A stretch of 64,000 nucleotides of DNA from Metallosphaera sedula DSM 5348. GTDB lineage: Archaea > Thermoproteota > Thermoprotei_A > Sulfolobales > Sulfolobaceae. The notes below the pieces were generated by a model that saw nothing but the letters and a program-made list of their open reading frames with translations, ran no database searches and had not been told where the DNA came from. The stretch lies in contig NC_009440.1 of the NCBI RefSeq assembly GCF_000016605.1, positions 1,377,789 through 1,441,788 of the forward strand. Reading direction: 5' to 3'. Below, piece after piece: positions 18,645-26,522 of this stretch (position 1 is the stretch's first letter; every line of letters starts with the position of its first letter). A program made the translations under genes and the position numbers.

Positions 18645-20000
18645 ACGGATTGGACAAAGGATTGAAGCAGGAGACTCGAAGCTACTCCGCCCTTACGGAC
18701 GGGGCATCCCCACCTCGCGATGGGGATTTCCTGCTTCTTTGGGGGAACTTACTATACATCACCTCATGGAAGGTGACGTACAGTAGGGGTTCCCCCTCCA
18801 CAGGCAGAGGGGCAGTCCCAACCCCATCCCTCAAGATGTTTAGGGACGCGTTGTAATCACGGTCGATAACAAGGCCGCAACTGGGACAGTGAAATAACCT
18901 GTCAGACAGGCCAAGTTTTACCCTGTACCCACACCTGGAACAGGTCTGCGACGTATATGCTGGGTCTACCTCGACCACCCTCCTACCAGCTCAGCCTTGT
19001 GGGAGAGGTGATGGAGGAAGGTGGAGAAACTGGAGTAGAGGATGTGCTTCCTCAATCTACCGAAGGAGTCCTGTACCATTTCTCGTGTGTTTAGCTTCTC
19101 AACAACTATTACGTCATGATCCTTGACTAACCACGTGGTTATCTTGTGTATGTAATCGCGTAGAGTGTTCTCAAGCCTCTCATAGGCCTTAGCTAGCTTC
19201 AGTCTAGCCTTTTCGCGGTTCCTTGAACCCCTCCTCTTCCTCGACAGTCTCCTTTGCAACAATTTGATCCTCTCTTCCCTCCTATCTAGGAGTTTAGGGT
19301 TCTCGATTACGTCACCGTCACTCGTGGTAACGAATTTTCCTATTCCTAGGTCAATCCCCACGACTCTACCGGTCCTTTCTAGGGGTTGTTTCTCTTGTTC
19401 GACTTGAAATATTGCGTACTACCTGTTTGTCTTGCTTCTCTTCACGATTACTCCCTTCACTTCTCCCTGTGTTGGCCTATGAAGAAGGAGCTTGATCTCT
19501 CCTATCTTGGATAGATGGAGCTTATCGCCTCGCAATTTGAACCCAGATTGGTTGTACCAGACTATCTTGAACGCCTTCCTGTACCTTAGTTTCCCCACTT
19601 TCTTTTCGTTCCTCTTTAGTTCTGATAACACCTTGATGTTGTACCATAGGACGTTGTTTACCATTTGTAGGGCTTTAGAGTACACCTCGTGTTTCTCGTC
19701 CATGTCCTTGAGTAGCTTTTGAGTGTCGAACTGTGTTGCCTTCATTCCCTGTCTTCTTCTCTCCGTGATGTAGTCCAGTAACTTGTTGTACACTTTCGCC
19801 TCTATTTCCATCGTGTTGATGAGTTTTCTCTCTATCTCTGGTGTCGGGTATGCCCTGTACTTGAATGAGAGGGTTACCTTGCCATCTTTTGATTTCAACG
19901 CTGTATAAAAACCAGTTTCTTTTGGTACAAAATCTTTTCTGGGGGCTATCCATCCCCACGCGGATGGAGACTTCCGCCCTCTTAACCCCCGTCAAGGTTA
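18645..20000 (-). mobile_element. Decayed IS200/IS605-group (IS1341-like) TnpB-only element
   Basis: The unit consists of a disrupted tnpB read on the minus strand plus flanking GC-rich, hairpin-forming ends: around 18690-18745 (the CCCCGTCC-GTAAGGGCGG type end beyond the 3' part of tnpB) and around 19940-20000 (GGATGGATAGCCCCC side). No TnpA transposase is present, so movement would depend on another copy. The ends given are approximate, since these elements make no target duplication and I cannot align copies. The 3' end region of such elements normally also encodes the guide (omega/reRNA), here expected on the minus strand around 18645-18800. Confidence 0.7.
18682..19898 (-). pseudogene. 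tnpB: tnpB, RNA-guided nuclease of IS605 type, interrupted twice
   Basis: Reading from a TTG at 19898, the frame meets an in-frame TAG at 19419-19421 and then continues in the same frame with YAIFQVEQEK and the RuvC segment GIDLGIGKFVTT. A single-base frameshift near 18976-18990 then separates this from the zinc-finger part (CSRCG...CPSCG). All catalytic residues of the RuvC-like site survive: Asp in GIDLGIG, Glu in VVEKLNTR and Asp in IDRDYNAS. The first lesion looks like TGG to TAG (a Trp is usual here). The gene is therefore a young pseudogene. Programmed readthrough is unlikely, as two independent lesions would be needed. Confidence 0.8.
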
Positions 20001-20131
20001 AAAACAGGAAAAGACTAGGAGGCCGATCAAGGAGAACCAACAACATTGCTCATATCTGATCACATTGGAAAGTCATTCCAGGAAACGACTAGTCCTCTAG
20101 TAAAAGGTAACTTCACACTATCGTAAATAAG
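20001..20131. other. Spacer between TnpB element and riboswitch promoter
   Basis: I see no gene here. It holds the outer flank of the element and the upstream part of the riboswitch promoter. Confidence 0.4.
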
Positions 20132-20140
20132 GCTTATAAT
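20132..20140 (+). promoter_or_regulatory. TATA-like box of the riboswitch-Ehr operon
   Basis: GCTTATAAT lies about 26 bases before the first base of the riboswitch P1 stem (20162). The predicted transcript would thus begin at the riboswitch itself. Confidence 0.55.
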
Positions 20141-20161
20141 CCAGTTACTTTGTAGGTTACT

Positions 20162-20224
20162 GGGGATGGCGTCCCCCAGGGCTTGTTCCCGAACCGCCTG
20201 ATACATGAAGGCTGATGACGCCTA
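20162..20224 (+). ncRNA. Fluoride riboswitch (crcB motif) aptamer
   Basis: The sequence fits the crcB motif. P1 is GGGG (20162-20165) with CCCC (20174-20177); the P1 loop AUGGCGUC offers GGCGUC (20168-20173), which pairs perfectly over six bases with GACGCC (20217-20222) as the pseudoknot. P3 is GCCU (20196-20199) with AGGC (20209-20212), followed by the conserved UGAUG. A small GGG/CCC hairpin (20179-20181 with 20088-type partner at 20188-20190) fills the variable middle. The element sits right before the operon of the Ehr complex. Fluoride riboswitches have been reported upstream of formate-hydrogenlyase-like genes in other organisms, which fits. No CrcB or EriC-F exporter is in the window. 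Confidence 0.82.
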
Positions 20225-20246
20225 TCTCTTGCCTAGGTGAGATAGG
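20221..20246 (+). promoter_or_regulatory. Expression platform hairpin covering the ribosome binding site
   Basis: CCTATCTC (20221-20228) pairs perfectly with GAGATAGG (20239-20246), directly before the ATG at 20247. The ribosome binding site GGTGA (20236-20240) lies in the loop and 3' arm. Bases 20221-20222 are also needed by the aptamer pseudoknot, so aptamer and hairpin exclude each other. Ligand binding should free the site and turn translation on. Confidence 0.65.
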
Positions 20247-21542
20247 ATGACTGGCCTAAACCTAGTGGGATGGATAATACTAGTTCCCATTTTGGGAAGT
20301 GCAGTAGTTTTTAAGGAAAAGTACTCCACGGTAGCCTCTGCTACGATCACCCTAATTCTCGTGCTAGCTCTCAAACCATTTTTACCCATAGTCTCCCAAT
20401 TTTACGTTAGTAACTTAACTTGGTATTTTTTGGTCATGGTGGCCGGTGTCTATCTGCTCTCATCCATTTACTCCCTCTTCTACGTGGAGAAGAGGGGAGT
20501 TCAGGAAAGGAATTACTATTATTTCCTCAATCTATTCGCCGCCTCCATGTTGTTCACACTCTCCGTCAACAATCTTGGACTCATGTGGGTTGGATTAGAG
20601 GCCACTACGATATCGTCCGTGCTTCTAGTAACCTTTGAGGGTACTTCAACTGCACTTGAGGCAGGATGGAGGTATCTCCTTCTTGTTTCCTCCGGAGTGA
20701 CTTTCGCATTCATCTCTGTCATCCTTTTCTATTTCGGCCTACACACCTTAACCATAAGCGAGGTACTATATCCTCACTTTTCTCCATTATTCTCGTTGGC
20801 CTCAGCCATTGCACTATTGGGTTTCGGGACAAAGGCTGGAGTATTCCCAGTAAATACCTGGCTACCAGATGCTCATTCGGAAGCTCCTTCACCTGTGAGT
20901 GCACTTTTTTCAGGAGTCCTCCTGCCAGTATCTATCTACATTCTTCACACAATTTTCATCATAGCACCCCTTCCGGGACTGTATAGCTGGCTAGCTACTA
21001 TCTCCATTCTCATTTCCTCCATAATGATGGCTAGCCAACGATATTACAAGAGGCTATTCGCCTACTCCACGATCGAGAACATGAATTTTGCCCTTCTTGG
21101 GGTTGCAGTGAACTCGTTAACAGGTTTAGTTATACTCTTGGTGACTCACGCATTCGCTAAGGCTGGGGCGTTTTATGCGTCTGGATCCCTGCTCAAAAGC
21201 CAAGGGACCAAGGAGATCAACGAACATGGACTCTATGGAAGTCCCTTACTAGCTTCTTCGCTCATCCTTTCATCTCTAGCAGTAACGGGTGCACCTCCCT
21301 TTGGCAACTTCATTGGAGAGTTCCTGATTCTCTCCTCAGTCCTCAAACATGGACTTGTCCCCCAATTCTGGATTGTAATCATTTCCTTGATAATATCATT
21401 CGTCTGCGTTAACTATCATGTGTCTAGGATGATCTTTAAGGGAAAACCATTTCGGGAGAGATACAAGGCACTCTCGATCATTGCCATAATTTCAGCTCTG
21501 ATTTCCTTAATCGTTGGTGTAGTAGGGGTGGTACTACTATGA
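20247..21542 (+). CDS. Ehr complex antiporter-like membrane subunit (NuoN/HyfF-like)
   Basis: The 431-residue protein is polytopic (about 12-14 membrane segments) and carries the proton-pumping core pattern of complex I antiporter-like subunits: a buried glutamate in MWVGLEATT, the lysine helix GFGTKAGVFPVNTWLPDAHS, then FAYSTIENMNFALLGVAV and the second lysine in HAFAKAGAFY. It would move protons or sodium ions when the complex turns over. It is the first gene of a six-gene operon with 4-base overlaps and is translated from a GGTGA site 6 bases before the ATG that the riboswitch hairpin can hide. Calling it HyfF, NuoN or MrpD-like is a matter of degree. Confidence 0.85.
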   Translation: MTGLNLVGWIILVPILGSAVVFKEKYSTVASATITLILVLALKPFLPIVSQFYVSNLTWYFLVMVAGVYLLSSIYSLFYVEKRGVQERNYYYFLNLFAASMLFTLSVNNLGLMWVGLEATTISSVLLVTFEGTSTALEAGWRYLLLVSSGVTFAFISVILFYFGLHTLTISEVLYPHFSPLFSLASAIALLGFGTKAGVFPVNTWLPDAHSEAPSPVSALFSGVLLPVSIYILHTIFIIAPLPGLYSWLATISILISSIMMASQRYYKRLFAYSTIENMNFALLGVAVNSLTGLVILLVTHAFAKAGAFYASGSLLKSQGTKEINEHGLYGSPLLASSLILSSLAVTGAPPFGNFIGEFLILSSVLKHGLVPQFWIVIISLIISFVCVNYHVSRMIFKGKPFRERYKALSIIAIISALISLIVGVVGVVLL

Positions 21543-22645
21543 GAGTTATAGGAGATATAGGGCCTTACTGCCTGACCTCAGACGGGCTCAGAGAAGGACC
21601 GTGCATTAAGGACCAGAGCGAAGAGGAGAGTCTGGGCTATGGTTCATTCAAGTTCGTTTATGGCCCGTCAGCTGGGGGTCTACTGGAGTCAGTGGGATTT
21701 GAAATTACAACTTATGGAGAAAGCATAGAGAAAATAAATCATTTACCATATAAGGGTAGACAAATAACTCTCTCCGGGCTGACAATTGGAGATGCCCTCC
21801 TTAGAGTTGAGAGAATTAACGGAGCGTTCACCGCATCTCATTCCATCTCTTTTCTTCAGGCAATTGAGAGTGCCTTAGAGATAGAGGTGCCTCACGACGT
21901 TGTTATTTCTAGGATGGCTCAGCTCGAGCTTGAAAGGATAAGGAATAATCTACTCGTGATTCAGAGGGTATTGGAATCGGCATCGTTCCTGGTTCCATCA
22001 TTTCTTCTTCTCCAGCAGATAGAGGAGGTTAACAGGGCCATAGCGAGGTCTTGCGGTCATAGATATTTCTTTGGGGCTAACTACCCAGGAGGAGTTAGAT
22101 GTGAGCTTAAGCTTCCGTCTCTTAAGATTTCGGACATAGAGAGAACGCTAGAGAACAGGATCTTCATTGACAGACTCCAAGGCAATGGAGTGGTTAAGGA
22201 TAGCTTCTCCATTGGGCCTGTCGCCAGGGCCTCTGGGTTCAAGTACGACGCAAGGCTAGACTCGGATTTTCTAGCTTACAGGAACTTTGACCTGAGAATC
22301 CCTACTCAGGATCAGGGAGATGCCTTCTCCAGGATCCTAGTTCGTCTGGAGGAGATTAAGGAATCGCTTAGGCTACTCCAGGAGCTCAAGGTAAAACCCT
22401 GTAGTTTCACCATGAAGATAAGGGATGGAGAGGGAATAGGAAGAGTTGAGAGCCCATCTGGAGATCTGGCTTACCTCACAAGGGTGAGGAGTGGCCACGT
22501 GGAGAGAGCATACCTTTTAGCTCCATCAAAGGTAAACATGAGACTTTTCCTCAAGTCCATGCCTGGAAATATCTTCACTGACTTTCCCTTCAACTGGGAA
22601 AGTTTCGGGATCTGGATATCTGAGCTCGAGGTCGATCTGGAATGA
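21539..22645 (+). CDS. [NiFe]-hydrogenase large-subunit-like protein without nickel ligands
   Basis: The 368-residue protein aligns by pattern with NuoD/HycE large subunits: a segment corresponding to the nickel-site region reads RVERINGAFTASHSISFLQA, followed by VVISRMAQLELERIRNNL. In true hydrogenases this place reads RxCGxC; here both cysteines are gone (NGAF). The C-terminal DPCxxC is likewise replaced by a run ending FGIWISELEVDL. So it cannot bind a NiFe centre and should not be called a hydrogenase. This matches the energy-converting-hydrogenase-related (Ehr) class. It overlaps both neighbours by 4 bases. A redox partner or quinone-like site is possible, as in complex I, but unknown. 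Confidence 0.8.
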   Translation: MRVIGDIGPYCLTSDGLREGPCIKDQSEEESLGYGSFKFVYGPSAGGLLESVGFEITTYGESIEKINHLPYKGRQITLSGLTIGDALLRVERINGAFTASHSISFLQAIESALEIEVPHDVVISRMAQLELERIRNNLLVIQRVLESASFLVPSFLLLQQIEEVNRAIARSCGHRYFFGANYPGGVRCELKLPSLKISDIERTLENRIFIDRLQGNGVVKDSFSIGPVARASGFKYDARLDSDFLAYRNFDLRIPTQDQGDAFSRILVRLEEIKESLRLLQELKVKPCSFTMKIRDGEGIGRVESPSGDLAYLTRVRSGHVERAYLLAPSKVNMRLFLKSMPGNIFTDFPFNWESFGIWISELEVDLE

Positions 22646-23253
22646 ATTGGTTTATAAAGGGAATTAGGATGGGTGTTAAGACCGAGGACGATTATCACCA
22701 CGAAACTAAATGGCCATCCAGGCTCACGAGAGTTAAAGGAGGAGAAATTACCTGTCCCACTGACGCCATAGGTGAGGAATGGAAACAGGAGAGATGCATT
22801 TTCTGCAGGGCATGTGAACCCGTATTCTCGCCAACAGGGGAGACCTTGACACCTAGGGTTGAGAGGTCAGATGTTACCTTCAAAAGATCATTCTATCTGT
22901 ATCCGTTAGATGCTGGAAGCTGTGGCGGATGCAACCTAGAACTAAGGCTGATTTCCTCTCCTCAGTATGATATGACTAGATTTGGTATTTTCTTCACCAA
23001 TACCCCCAAGCACGCCGACGCACTACTAATTATGGGGAATCTGGGCAAGAGAATGGAAGAGGTTATAAGGAGAGCTTATGATGTAATACCTTCCCCAAAG
23101 CTAGTGATTCTCTTGGGTACGTGTGCCATATCAGGTGGAGTGACCGGAATTCCACCAGACATAAGGGGAGACGTCATTGTTCCAGGCTGTCCCCCAACCC
23201 CTGCCTCAATACTTGATGCATTGATAAAGGCCAAAGGAGGTGATAGGAAGTGA
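22642..23253 (+). CDS. NuoB/HyfI-like small subunit fused to a ferredoxin-like segment
   Basis: The C-terminal two thirds of this 203-residue protein form the small-subunit fold with all four ligands of the proximal [4Fe-4S] cluster: CGGC (SCGGCNLEL), Cys of GTCAISGG and Cys of PGCPPTP. The first 60 residues add a piece with CPTDAI and CIFCRACEP, the order of cysteines in half of a bacterial-type ferredoxin, enough for one more cluster. In Hyf/Nuo complexes that cluster sits on a separate HyfH/NuoI subunit, which is missing from this operon, so the fusion may replace it. Starts at an ATGA overlap with the upstream gene. Confidence 0.82.
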   Translation: MNWFIKGIRMGVKTEDDYHHETKWPSRLTRVKGGEITCPTDAIGEEWKQERCIFCRACEPVFSPTGETLTPRVERSDVTFKRSFYLYPLDAGSCGGCNLELRLISSPQYDMTRFGIFFTNTPKHADALLIMGNLGKRMEEVIRRAYDVIPSPKLVILLGTCAISGGVTGIPPDIRGDVIVPGCPPTPASILDALIKAKGGDRK

Positions 23254-24962
23254 TTCTAGAACTCGACCTAATTTACATACTATCTGCTCTTTCCTTAGTT
23301 ACATCCCTCTTCAGCAACAGAATATCTTTAGTGCTTCTCGTGTTAGCTTCTGGGATACTTGCCTTTTACGGTGTACAGGAACTACCCATGGGTATATTCT
23401 ACCTAGTCGCGGGATTGGTATGGGTTCTGGTCGCTTTACACTCCTTGTTCCACTATAGCGATAAGTGGCTCACTATGACCCTAAGTGGTACTGTACTAGG
23501 GATCATTGTGGTTCTTACCAGCACGAACTACATCGAGTTTCTCGCGGGATGGGAAACCATGACGCTTTTCTCGTTCGTTGGAATAGCGATCTACAGAAAG
23601 GACTGGAAACCTGCATTAACTTTCCTTGCGTTCGGGGAGCTGAGCACTGCATTACTGCTAGCCGGTTTCGCCCTTGCCTACTCTCAGACAGGTAGTCTAG
23701 TATTCGAGAGGTTAAGCACTCAGCTCCCCCTCATTATAACGTCAATGGGTTTCATCGTCAAGATGGGAATATTCCCATTCCTTGTCGTGGAGTGGTTGCC
23801 CATAGCCCACGGAAACGCCAGGTCGGATCTATCAGCAGTTCTAAGCGCAACGGTAACCATGACAGGGATTTACGGAATATTGAAGATGGAGTCCTTGAGT
23901 CCCGTTTCGACGTATCTGGGAATATTCCTTCTCGCCGTGGGAGCCTTCTCCAACCTGTTTGGTGCCCTATACTCCTATGTCTCCGATCATGTTAAGGGAT
24001 TGCTAGCGTTTAGCACCATCGAAAATAATGGTGCCATGCTAGCTCTGTTGGGAAGCCTAGAGCTTGTGAGCGGAGACTTGAAGGAGTTCGTCACGTTTAG
24101 TCTTTTTACTTACGTAATAGCTCACTCCCTCGCTAAGACAGGGCTTTTTCTTTCAACTGGATATGTTGAGGGAGAATCGCTGACAACTGCAAGCTCCTTT
24201 AGATATGGTCTCTCAGTTCTAGGAGCAGTCCTGATGGCCATGTCGTTATCGGGGCTTTTGCCTACCATAGGGGGAATCGCGACGTGGTCATTGCTGGAGT
24301 CGATGTTCATGGAAGCTATAACACTACCGCACTTCATCAACATTGTCCCAATAGTGGCAGGTGTCATGATAGGCATGGGAGAGGGATTTGCCACCGGATC
24401 CCTTGCGAAGTTCGTATCATACACTCAACTGACAAAACCGATCAAGGACAAACAGGGACTCATCCTTGCAGTTTCTGGGATCCTCGTCTTAGTTACTGTG
24501 GGCCTGGCGTATCTTCTTTCTCCCTTCAGAACAGAGGTGTCCCAGCTTGGGGTTGGGCTAAATTCCCTTATCTCCTCGCAATATCAAAGAAGTTTTGGAG
24601 GGATTGATCCGCTTTATATCTTAGTTTCATGGCCGATTATCGCATTAATAGTGTACCTGTCCCTAGGTAAGAGAAAAATAAGAGTTGTAGACCCTTGGGA
24701 TAATGGATCTGCTCAAGGATTTAGATACACCTCCTTTGGCATGGCAAATAACGTGAGACTGATGTTAAGGGCTTTACTTAGAACCAAGACTGGATCCCTG
24801 GAGACTAGCGCTGACATCTTCTGGCAAGCCATGTTAGTTTTAATCAGATGGTATCTCAAATTCTCTAGAACCTTCTCCAGGAGCTTCATGAATGGCTCCC
24901 TGAGATGGTACATGGTTTACATGATAATTGCCATTGTCGTCATAATGGTGATCACGTTATGA
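23250..24962 (+). CDS. Ehr complex antiporter-like membrane subunit (HyfB/NuoL-like)
   Basis: The 570-residue polytopic protein has the antiporter-like core (buried Glu in FLAGWETMTLF, Lys helix IVKMGIFPFLVVEWLPIAHG, FSTIENNGAML, HSLAKTGLFLS) followed by a long C-terminal part with WDNGSAQGFRYTSFGMANN, which is typical of HyfB/HycC. It is the second ion-pumping subunit of the complex. Translation begins at a GTG overlapping the upstream stop by 4 bases. With the 20247 gene this gives two antiporter-like modules, as in hydrogenase-4-type complexes. Confidence 0.87.
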   Translation: MILELDLIYILSALSLVTSLFSNRISLVLLVLASGILAFYGVQELPMGIFYLVAGLVWVLVALHSLFHYSDKWLTMTLSGTVLGIIVVLTSTNYIEFLAGWETMTLFSFVGIAIYRKDWKPALTFLAFGELSTALLLAGFALAYSQTGSLVFERLSTQLPLIITSMGFIVKMGIFPFLVVEWLPIAHGNARSDLSAVLSATVTMTGIYGILKMESLSPVSTYLGIFLLAVGAFSNLFGALYSYVSDHVKGLLAFSTIENNGAMLALLGSLELVSGDLKEFVTFSLFTYVIAHSLAKTGLFLSTGYVEGESLTTASSFRYGLSVLGAVLMAMSLSGLLPTIGGIATWSLLESMFMEAITLPHFINIVPIVAGVMIGMGEGFATGSLAKFVSYTQLTKPIKDKQGLILAVSGILVLVTVGLAYLLSPFRTEVSQLGVGLNSLISSQYQRSFGGIDPLYILVSWPIIALIVYLSLGKRKIRVVDPWDNGSAQGFRYTSFGMANNVRLMLRALLRTKTGSLETSADIFWQAMLVLIRWYLKFSRTFSRSFMNGSLRWYMVYMIIAIVVIMVITL

Positions 24963-25900
24963 TTAACACGTTAGTGGAAACACTTATCCAGGTCTCTGCA
25001 GTACTTGCCCTCTCTCCTCTCTATCCCGGCATCCTTGAGAAAATGAAAGCTAGGGTGGAAGGAAGAAGAGGTCCTAGCATATTTCAGCCCTACTACGATC
25101 TACTAAAACTTAACAAGAAGGAGATGACCATTCCGAGAAACGCAGGATGGCTCTTCGTCAATGGACCATACCTTGTTTTCTCGATTTATGTCCTTATCTC
25201 CTTTGTAATTCCTGTTGTTTACCCAGAACCTGTCTATCTTACCCCAGTGGTGGACTTTTTAGGAGGAGCTCTCCTTTTCTCGCTTTCAGGTTTCTTGAAA
25301 GTCTATGAGTCCATGGAAAGCTCTAGTAACCTAGTAACTCTTGGGGTATCGAGAAACATTTCCTTTGCCTATCTTGGAGAGGCCACCCTGCTAACAGTGT
25401 TCATAGCAGTTGCGTTGGTAACTGGAACTAATAATCCCTACATTACAATGGAGGCTATTCAATCGCCGACAGAATATCTCTTCCTGCCTCATATAACAGC
25501 CAGTGTGGCCTTTTTCATGTTATGGTTGTACGAGACTGGGAAACTTCCGTTGGAGAGCTCAGGGATGTCGGAAATGGGAATGATCGATGATTCTCTAGTA
25601 TATGAATACAGCGGAAAGGGTCTGATGCTATTGAGATGGGGAAGCTACGTGAAGTCTTACCTTCTTGGGTCTGTGTTGTTAAACGTCTTCCTCATACCCT
25701 GGGGAATGCAGACGGGTGTACTTGGGGCCATGGCGGATGTGGGAATAATGTTCCTGAAGTGGTTAGTTCTCCTTATGATAACCGTGGTAATAGAGACAAG
25801 CCTCGCGAAGTTCAGGCTATTTAAGATACAGGACTTCCTGATTGTGGCCTTAGTGCTCTCGGTGTTTTCGGTTATCCTGACGGTGACCTTGAATGGTTGA
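24959..25900 (+). CDS. Ehr complex membrane anchor subunit (HyfC/NuoH-like)
   Basis: The 313-residue protein is the NuoH/HycD-type subunit that couples the peripheral arm to the membrane. The diagnostic cytoplasmic loop RVEGRRGPSIFQPYYDLLKL lies at about residues 32-51, and a charged segment around KLPLESSGMSEM follows the middle helices. I chose the ATG at 24959, an ATGA overlap with the stop of the HyfB-like gene, over an upstream GTG-type frame that would add 18 unconserved residues. Eight membrane segments are expected from the hydrophobic pattern. Confidence 0.87.
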   Translation: MINTLVETLIQVSAVLALSPLYPGILEKMKARVEGRRGPSIFQPYYDLLKLNKKEMTIPRNAGWLFVNGPYLVFSIYVLISFVIPVVYPEPVYLTPVVDFLGGALLFSLSGFLKVYESMESSSNLVTLGVSRNISFAYLGEATLLTVFIAVALVTGTNNPYITMEAIQSPTEYLFLPHITASVAFFMLWLYETGKLPLESSGMSEMGMIDDSLVYEYSGKGLMLLRWGSYVKSYLLGSVLLNVFLIPWGMQTGVLGAMADVGIMFLKWLVLLMITVVIETSLAKFRLFKIQDFLIVALVLSVFSVILTVTLNG

Positions 25901-26522
25901 ACTTATCCAGGAAATAATACTGTTGCTCTCCTTCCTGTTACCTGTCACTGCCTTGTATATACAGGGTCAAGCCTATTTCAATCCTGCAATAAAAGTGGTT
26001 GGGGTTCAGTCCCTTATCATTGGGACTATTTCTCTTGTTTACTATTTATTTACGGATAATATTGAGTTCATAATATTAGCTGGGATAATATTTTTTACGA
26101 GAGTATTCCTTACGCCATATATTCTACTAAGGACGGTAAAGTATAGAGAATGGGATAGGGAAAAAGTAAAGGTTTTATCCAGTTTCGTTTTGAACTTAAC
26201 CTTCTTCTTCTCGGCAACCCTCCTTGTAGCTTATGCGGTATTCACAAGGGCTATACCAACGGAATATGAGCAGGTTATAATGCCCATGACGCTCTTTTTC
26301 CAGGGTTTATTTCTCATAGCATCACGTAAGTCAACCGTAGCTCACATACTAGGGTATATAGAACTTGAAAATTCCCTTGTGATGCTGGGCATATTTCTCA
26401 TACCTCCACCGATCCTGATAGATGCTACAGTATTTCTAGATGTCTTGGCCCTAGTTGTCATATCGTCCATCATTATCGTCGAGAAGAGAGACCACGAGCC
26501 TCTTGAAGAGTTAACAGGATGA
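25893..26522 (+). CDS. Ehr complex subunit HyfE-like (NuoK-related)
   Basis: This 209-residue protein with about six to seven membrane segments matches HyfE, the hydrogenase-4 subunit related to NuoK (pattern AHILGYIELENSLVMLGIFL near residue 155 with a buried Glu). It overlaps the HyfC-like gene by 8 bases and closes the operon. It is probably part of the ion channel of the complex. Confidence 0.8.
   Translation: MVELIQEIILLLSFLLPVTALYIQGQAYFNPAIKVVGVQSLIIGTISLVYYLFTDNIEFIILAGIIFFTRVFLTPYILLRTVKYREWDREKVKVLSSFVLNLTFFFSATLLVAYAVFTRAIPTEYEQVIMPMTLFFQGLFLIASRKSTVAHILGYIELENSLVMLGIFLIPPPILIDATVFLDVLALVVISSIIIVEKRDHEPLEELTG

Follow-up and report, generated by a model that had tools for sequence, protein, structure and literature searches.

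The window analysed here, a stretch of 64,000 nucleotides at 1377789-1441788 of the 2,191,517-base genome of Metallosphaera sedula DSM 5348, contains an RNA element in the 5' leader of a six-gene operon on the same strand (20247-26522, +), which starts directly 3' of the element. The genes overlap or nearly abut and follow the order HyfF-LSU-SSU-HyfB-NuoH-HyfE (LSU and SSU being the large and small subunits). The features are as follows, with the basis of each in brackets.

About 20125-20139, + strand: BRE/TATA-like promoter, AAATAAGG-CTTATAA (read from the sequence)
20153-20231, + strand: fluoride riboswitch aptamer RF01734 (cmscan, single genome copy)
20162-20177, + strand: P1 (GGGG/CCCC), its loop holding AU and the 5' pseudoknot strand GGCGUC at 20168-20173 (sequence)
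About 20179-20190, + strand: extra small hairpin between P1 and AACC (sequence, relatives)
20192-20216, + strand: conserved AACC, P3 (GCCU/AGGC) and joining strand UGAU (sequence, cmscan alignment)
20217-20222, + strand: 3' pseudoknot strand GACGCC, common to the aptamer and the expression platform (sequence, folding)
20221-20246, + strand: putative start-masking hairpin CCUAUCUC/GAGAUAGG, overlapping the pseudoknot strand and reaching up to the start codon (sequence, relatives, folding)
20247-21542, + strand: HyfF/NuoM-like antiporter-type subunit, first gene (PF00361, NF005042)
21539-22645, + strand: large subunit, NuoD/HycE-like, without the [NiFe] cysteine motifs (profile matches, alignment)
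22642-23253, + strand: small subunit, NuoB/HycG-like, with a ferredoxin-type N-terminal extension (profile matches, alignment)
23250-24962, + strand: HyfB/NuoL-like antiporter-type subunit (NF005046)
24905-25900, + strand: NuoH/HyfC-like subunit (PF00146)
25893-26522, + strand: HyfE-like membrane subunit at the end of the operon (NF008556, scoring under the curated cut-off; position conserved in relatives)

When the whole window was scanned against all Rfam families, RF01734 (the fluoride riboswitch) was the sole family above its gathering score, with a single match of 53.2 bits (gathering score 34; E 6.3e-12) and no second copy in the 2.19 Mb genome. The original prediction of a crcB motif was therefore borne out, and a chance match was rejected on the E-value, the uniqueness in the genome and the conservation. 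The parts it had named are all in place: P1 (GGGG 20162-20165 with CCCC 20174-20177, two further pairs being possible), P3 (GCCU 20196-20199 with AGGC 20209-20212), the joining strand (UGAU, 20213-20216) and a pseudoknot of six perfect pairs between 20168-20173 and 20217-20222. Across the Ehr-linked aptamers described below, the pseudoknot pairing survives many compensatory changes in a comparison over several phyla. The predicted architecture held, but not the predicted length of 63 bases; the element is about 70-79 nt long because of the extra short hairpin, which also occurs with variable sequence in Sulfolobaceae relatives. Its 3' end lies 15 nt upstream of the ATG at 20247. From the usual archaeal distance between TATA box and start, the AATAAGG-CTTATAA promoter would place transcription initiation at about 20157-20162, at the foot of P1, in agreement with the predicted coincidence of element and transcript start. 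The element is thus confirmed by the covariance model as a fluoride riboswitch, and is predicted to bind fluoride. Further upstream, a TnpB-like transposase insertion split over three frames, with a visible zinc-finger motif (window 18682-19898, -), separates the riboswitch promoter from an alcohol dehydrogenase gene, which in genome G022 is directly upstream.

All six proteins match Hyf/Nuo/Mbh-type subunits. The large subunit, whose nearest named relative is in Metallosphaera javensis (79% identity), aligned best with that of the Pyrococcus furiosus hydrogenase Mbh (PDB 6cfw, E 2e-29), its best solved relative, and then with complex I 49 kDa subunits. Whereas Mbh carries CGIC nickel ligands, the large subunit here has residues unable to bind nickel: the first ligand motif is ERMCGICSFSH in Mbh and ERINxxFxASH in the operon's family, the N- and C-terminal CxxC ligands are both missing, and no CxxC was present in the large subunit of 60 relatives. 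Residues of the NuoD quinone site are likewise not conserved at the aligned positions. In the small subunit the cluster cysteines C94, C97, C161 and C183 are invariant, and the ferredoxin-like N-terminal extension brings four further cysteines. A complex of Ech/Hyf type that combines NuoH and antiporter-like subunits with a large and a small subunit but has no [NiFe] ligands corresponds to the energy-converting-hydrogenase-related (Ehr) complexes, which Marreiros et al. in 2013 reportedly placed between group 4 [NiFe] hydrogenases and complex I. Given the missing [NiFe] cysteines of the large subunit, we assign the complex to Ehr, as had been predicted for the genes behind the element, and reject a hydrogenase or formate hydrogenlyase identity. 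Alignment with relatives showed E118, K196, H301, K305 and E358 of HyfF to be invariant, E102, K171 and K296 of HyfB to be kept, and many acidic residues to be kept in NuoH. These charged residues sit at what we take to be the positions where complex I carries protons, so the complex should pump ions, and is predicted to be a redox-driven ion pump.

We assessed how closely the riboswitch and the operon are associated in other genomes. A covariance search of 197 genomes of the order detected RF01734 in 21 Sulfolobaceae genomes, and a separate protein search with HyfF recovered the operon in 20, all of which carry the riboswitch directly before the operon's first gene. Two gene orders occur, HyfF-LSU-SSU-HyfB-NuoH-HyfE and NuoH-HyfE-HyfF-LSU-SSU-HyfB; these are circular permutations of each other, and the riboswitch always comes first. 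In the remaining one of the 21 genomes, G032, the aptamer scores lowest of all (35.4 bits) and is located before an 84-residue HyfF remnant, as expected of a switch decaying with its operon. In two other loci, L061 (G146) and L065 (G175), the HyfB and NuoH frames appear broken, through sequencing errors or operon decay.

The large-subunit alignment was also run against 84,980 species genomes. Outside Sulfolobaceae it picked up the operon in MAGs bearing the names Marsarchaeota G2, Micrarchaeota, Thaumarchaeota and Thermoplasmata, several of these relatives being MAG contigs that are possibly mis-binned. Their loci hold all six genes of the operon as far as the contigs extend. An aptamer (canonical, weak or variant) precedes the operon in 12 of the 12 MAG loci with an intact operon front, a count that leaves out two contigs ending before it (L103, L105). 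Four aptamers score above the RF01734 cut-off (L097, L100, L109, L110) and seven below it (L099, L101, L102, L104, L106, L107, L111), and L108 has one of 18.7 bits (E 1.1) in the corresponding position before the operon. Among Thermoplasmatota, the operon was present in 34 of 293 genomes (large-subunit profile, at least 190 bits). Covariance models detected an aptamer in 30 of the 32 leaders with an operon front: 29 with RF01734 at E ≤0.32 (14 of them above gathering) and one more with the variant model R1. A degenerate aptamer was seen by eye in L151, and none was visible before the operon in L159 (G730). No aptamer was found with three more distant complexes that have recognisable subunits (L175, L176, L178), and no operon was recognised upstream in L177. 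The linkage of riboswitch and Ehr operon is conserved across several archaeal phyla.

A variant form of the leader, GGCG-GA-GGCGUC-CGCC...GGC-CAAU-GACGCC, characterises one clade of Thermoplasmata (tree support 100/99). We compared 43 aptamers: 31 open the AU step with A and the joining strand with U, and the remaining 12 have G and C at these two positions (the aptamers of the L066 and L170 leaders were read by eye). These covarying positions presumably correspond to A6 and U38 of the crystal-structure numbering, which we take to be in mutual contact. The variant occurs in L101 (5493-5567), L102 (6660-6729), L104 (149-221), L106 (5560-5634), L107 (670-742), L108 (6660-6729), L111 (4300-4373), L165 and L167-L170, and the A6-to-G, U38-to-C aptamers before the Ehr operon are mostly below the Rfam cut-off. 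A canonical fluoride riboswitch adjoins the Ehr operon on the opposite strand in L106 (4624-4686, -) and L107 (2-458, -), in the latter preceding a dynamin-like GTPase (PF00350). Because these two loci carry both forms, the variant keeps to the Ehr operon while the canonical aptamer persists in the same genomes. It is possible that the variant has an altered ligand preference.

Known fluoride exporters were sought in the same genomes. A search for PF02537 (CrcB/Fluc) gave no match in M. sedula, consistent with the prediction that the riboswitch precedes a complex instead of an exporter, nor in any Sulfolobaceae examined (operon present or not) or any of the 12 named MAGs with the operon. In Thermoplasmatota, Fluc was found in 0 of 34 genomes with the operon and 106 of 259 without it (Fisher p 1.2e-7, with relatedness ignored); one of the 34 (G591) retains a broken Fluc remnant of 50 residues. 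The exclusion is partly a lineage effect, since Sulfolobaceae that lack the operon also lack Fluc. The single CLC of M. sedula has the motifs GSGGSAGREGP and GSGGSGGVFAP and does not contain GNNLI/GMGLI, which a 2024 review (PMC11139923) quotes as the CLC-F signature. No fluoride exporter was found in or beside the operon, the CLC being encoded elsewhere in the genome and without the signature.

Other genes also lie behind fluoride riboswitches in these archaea. MutS-domain-V ATPases follow one in L097 (15840-18943), L100 (2350-5380), L002 and L013 (PF00488 was found in L097 and L100; the other two were judged by sequence), and two of these cases are tandem riboswitch pairs in the neighbourhood of the Ehr operon. 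In many other Thermoproteota (L074, L075, L077, L079-L082, L084, L085, L087-L093), a fluoride riboswitch precedes a prenyltransferase/terpene-cyclase-like toroid protein, with PF00432 in L074 and a similar N-terminal sequence in the other loci; in L089 the toroid protein is followed by an apparent CrcB. A Na+/H+ exchanger occupies this place in L078 and L083 (PF00999 in L078).

The leader 3' of the aptamer suggests how the switch might act on the operon. It reads CCUAUCUC-(10)-GAGAUAGG-AUG (20221-20249), and the 5' arm of the resulting hairpin uses the final two bases of the pseudoknot strand GACGCC; the hairpin half encloses the Shine-Dalgarno sequence GGUGA (20236-20240). This hairpin is kept in other Metallosphaera and in the Marsarchaeota copy. 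Species with the NuoH-first order have a longer competitor, in which GACGCCUACUUC pairs with GAAGUAUGGCGUC; here the start codon region, AUGGCGUC, repeats the aptamer's 5' pseudoknot strand and would therefore compete for GACGCC. A third design is seen in L053, L055 and L066 (G066, G096, G183), where a coding stretch downstream of the start, GGCGGUUC, can pair with GAACCGCC of the aptamer. A transcription-terminator platform was rejected, as the leader has no T-run.

Folding calculations were used to examine this competition. At 70 °C, locking GACGCC unpaired made opening of the region from Shine-Dalgarno to start cheaper in 20 of 20 Sulfolobaceae leaders, by a mean of 2.3 kcal/mol compared with 0.37 kcal/mol for other 6-nt locks; per leader, 3-26% of the other locks match the GACGCC lock, and four leaders, those of G066, G096, G183 and G131, show a weak effect. 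For the M. sedula leader the shift at 70 °C was modest with both pseudoknot strands held (5.4 to 4.3 kcal/mol), and at 37 °C there was no effect (9.1 vs 9.5 kcal/mol). Because the Vienna model cannot represent a pseudoknot, these results are support for the platform, not proof of it. Folding thus points to a translational ON switch in which GACGCC would help to mask the Shine-Dalgarno sequence and start codon; with strands in competition and no terminator, ligand binding would raise translation.

The reading that we favour, with moderate confidence, is that the fluoride riboswitch controls translation of the Ehr ion pump, probably as an answer to HF entry in genomes without Fluc. HF has a pKa of about 3.2. 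At pH 2-3 it would enter the cell and dissociate in the near-neutral cytoplasm to F- and H+, so that a passive F- channel would turn HF entry into a proton leak. Without fluoride, GACGCC would help to form the hairpin hiding the Shine-Dalgarno sequence and start codon; once Mg-fluoride is bound, GACGCC would be locked in the pseudoknot, the hairpin would weaken and the first gene would be translated. Chemistry and gene content suggest that the induced redox pump would expel the proton load or power anion removal. The pairing recurs in Fluc-less genomes, which makes the complex their probable means of defence against fluoride; fluoride binding, induction and the pump's action on fluoride are inferred. 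HF entry and cytoplasmic acidification are described in the 2024 review, in which Na+/H+ antiporters are the next most common fluoride riboswitch targets after exporters (PMC11139923). A wider proposal, put forward tentatively and with rather less than even confidence, is that acidophile archaea have a third, Fluc-independent defence in which a fluoride-induced Ehr pump replaces the passive channel, and that one Thermoplasmata clade uses a G/C variant aptamer in place of A6-U38.

The subunit names invite a different interpretation, in which the operon encodes a formate hydrogenlyase or hydrogenase-4 and fluoride induces a shift towards fermentation. Its best NCBIfam names are those of hydrogenase 4 subunits F and B, and formate hydrogen lyase is listed among common fluoride riboswitch genes (PMC2864571, PMC11139923), but the loss of both [NiFe] cysteine pairs, no CxxC being present in 60 relatives, together with the lack of a formate dehydrogenase gene in the operon or directly beside it, makes this very improbable. 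It is less far-fetched, though still unlikely in our judgement, that the complex bypasses a fluoride-sensitive respiratory or biosynthetic step and maintains redox balance during inhibition of metal-phosphate enzymes. Bacterial fluoride riboswitches also control the inhibition targets enolase and pyrophosphatase (PMC11139923), and the quinone-site residues of NuoD are not kept at the aligned positions of the large subunit. Such a bypass does not, however, account for the occurrence of the operon in Fluc-less genomes.

Mutual exclusion with Fluc, and an only CLC without the CLC-F signature, would also suit a complex that itself exports fluoride (or HF or an anion) through an antiporter-like subunit, as a redox-powered alternative to Fluc and CLC-F. 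Yet the conserved charged residues resemble ordinary proton channels and we know of no anion-transporting Mrp/Nuo subunit, so that direct export seems improbable. We find it barely credible that the aptamer is a decayed or non-binding fossil riding with the operon. Some linked aptamers do fall below the Rfam cut-off, and we found no experiment showing binding in any archaeon, but no core position is lost in the M. sedula copy, compensatory change preserves the pairing over several phyla, and the aptamer weakens where the operon is lost (G032).

The proposed fluoride-responsive control of the Ehr pump can be set against known systems. The element shares architecture, pseudoknot, core letters and 5' UTR position with the crcB/fluoride class (RF01734), and differs in preceding an Ehr operon instead of an exporter, in its putative start-codon platform without a terminator and in the extra hairpin 3' of P1. 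For Pseudomonas syringae and Burkholderia pseudomallei, fluoride riboswitches acting on translation have been named (PMC13273304); these likewise lack an intrinsic terminator, whereas the present ones are archaeal and, in NuoH-first species, have AUGGCGUC copying the 5' pseudoknot strand. The complex has the same Hyf/Nuo-type subunits, without [NiFe] ligands, as known Ehr complexes, but a fluoride riboswitch accompanies almost all of the operons of its family that we examined. The usual riboswitch targets, Fluc (CrcB) and CLC-F, have the same presumed purpose of fluoride tolerance and no sequence relation to the complex, and Fluc is absent from every tested operon-bearing genome.

According to the original prediction, an ion-translocating complex answering to fluoride was not known to have been studied in Sulfolobales. 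The pairing is not wholly new, because Weinberg et al. reported in 2010 both crcB RNAs in archaea and crcB RNAs upstream of 'formate hydrogen lyase' genes (PMC2864571), and existing alignments may therefore already include the M. sedula copy. The 2024 review repeats the association and reads it as fermentation (PMC11139923), and archaeal riboswitch action was called undemonstrated in 2011 (PMC3124441). In the main texts of the open literature we found no paper on the Ehr identity or on how constantly the riboswitch accompanies the operon, and none on the exclusion of Fluc, a platform at the start codon or the aptamer variant.

To our knowledge, Ehr complexes have no known function, and a near-constant fluoride riboswitch names a condition under which to seek it. 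The pairing offers an answer to how acidophiles without Fluc survive where fluoride enters as HF, and points to a non-hydrogenase pump behind the 'formate hydrogen lyase' riboswitch entries, at least those from archaea. It also provides a compact, testable case of an archaeal riboswitch, and some of the host organisms are genetically manipulable.
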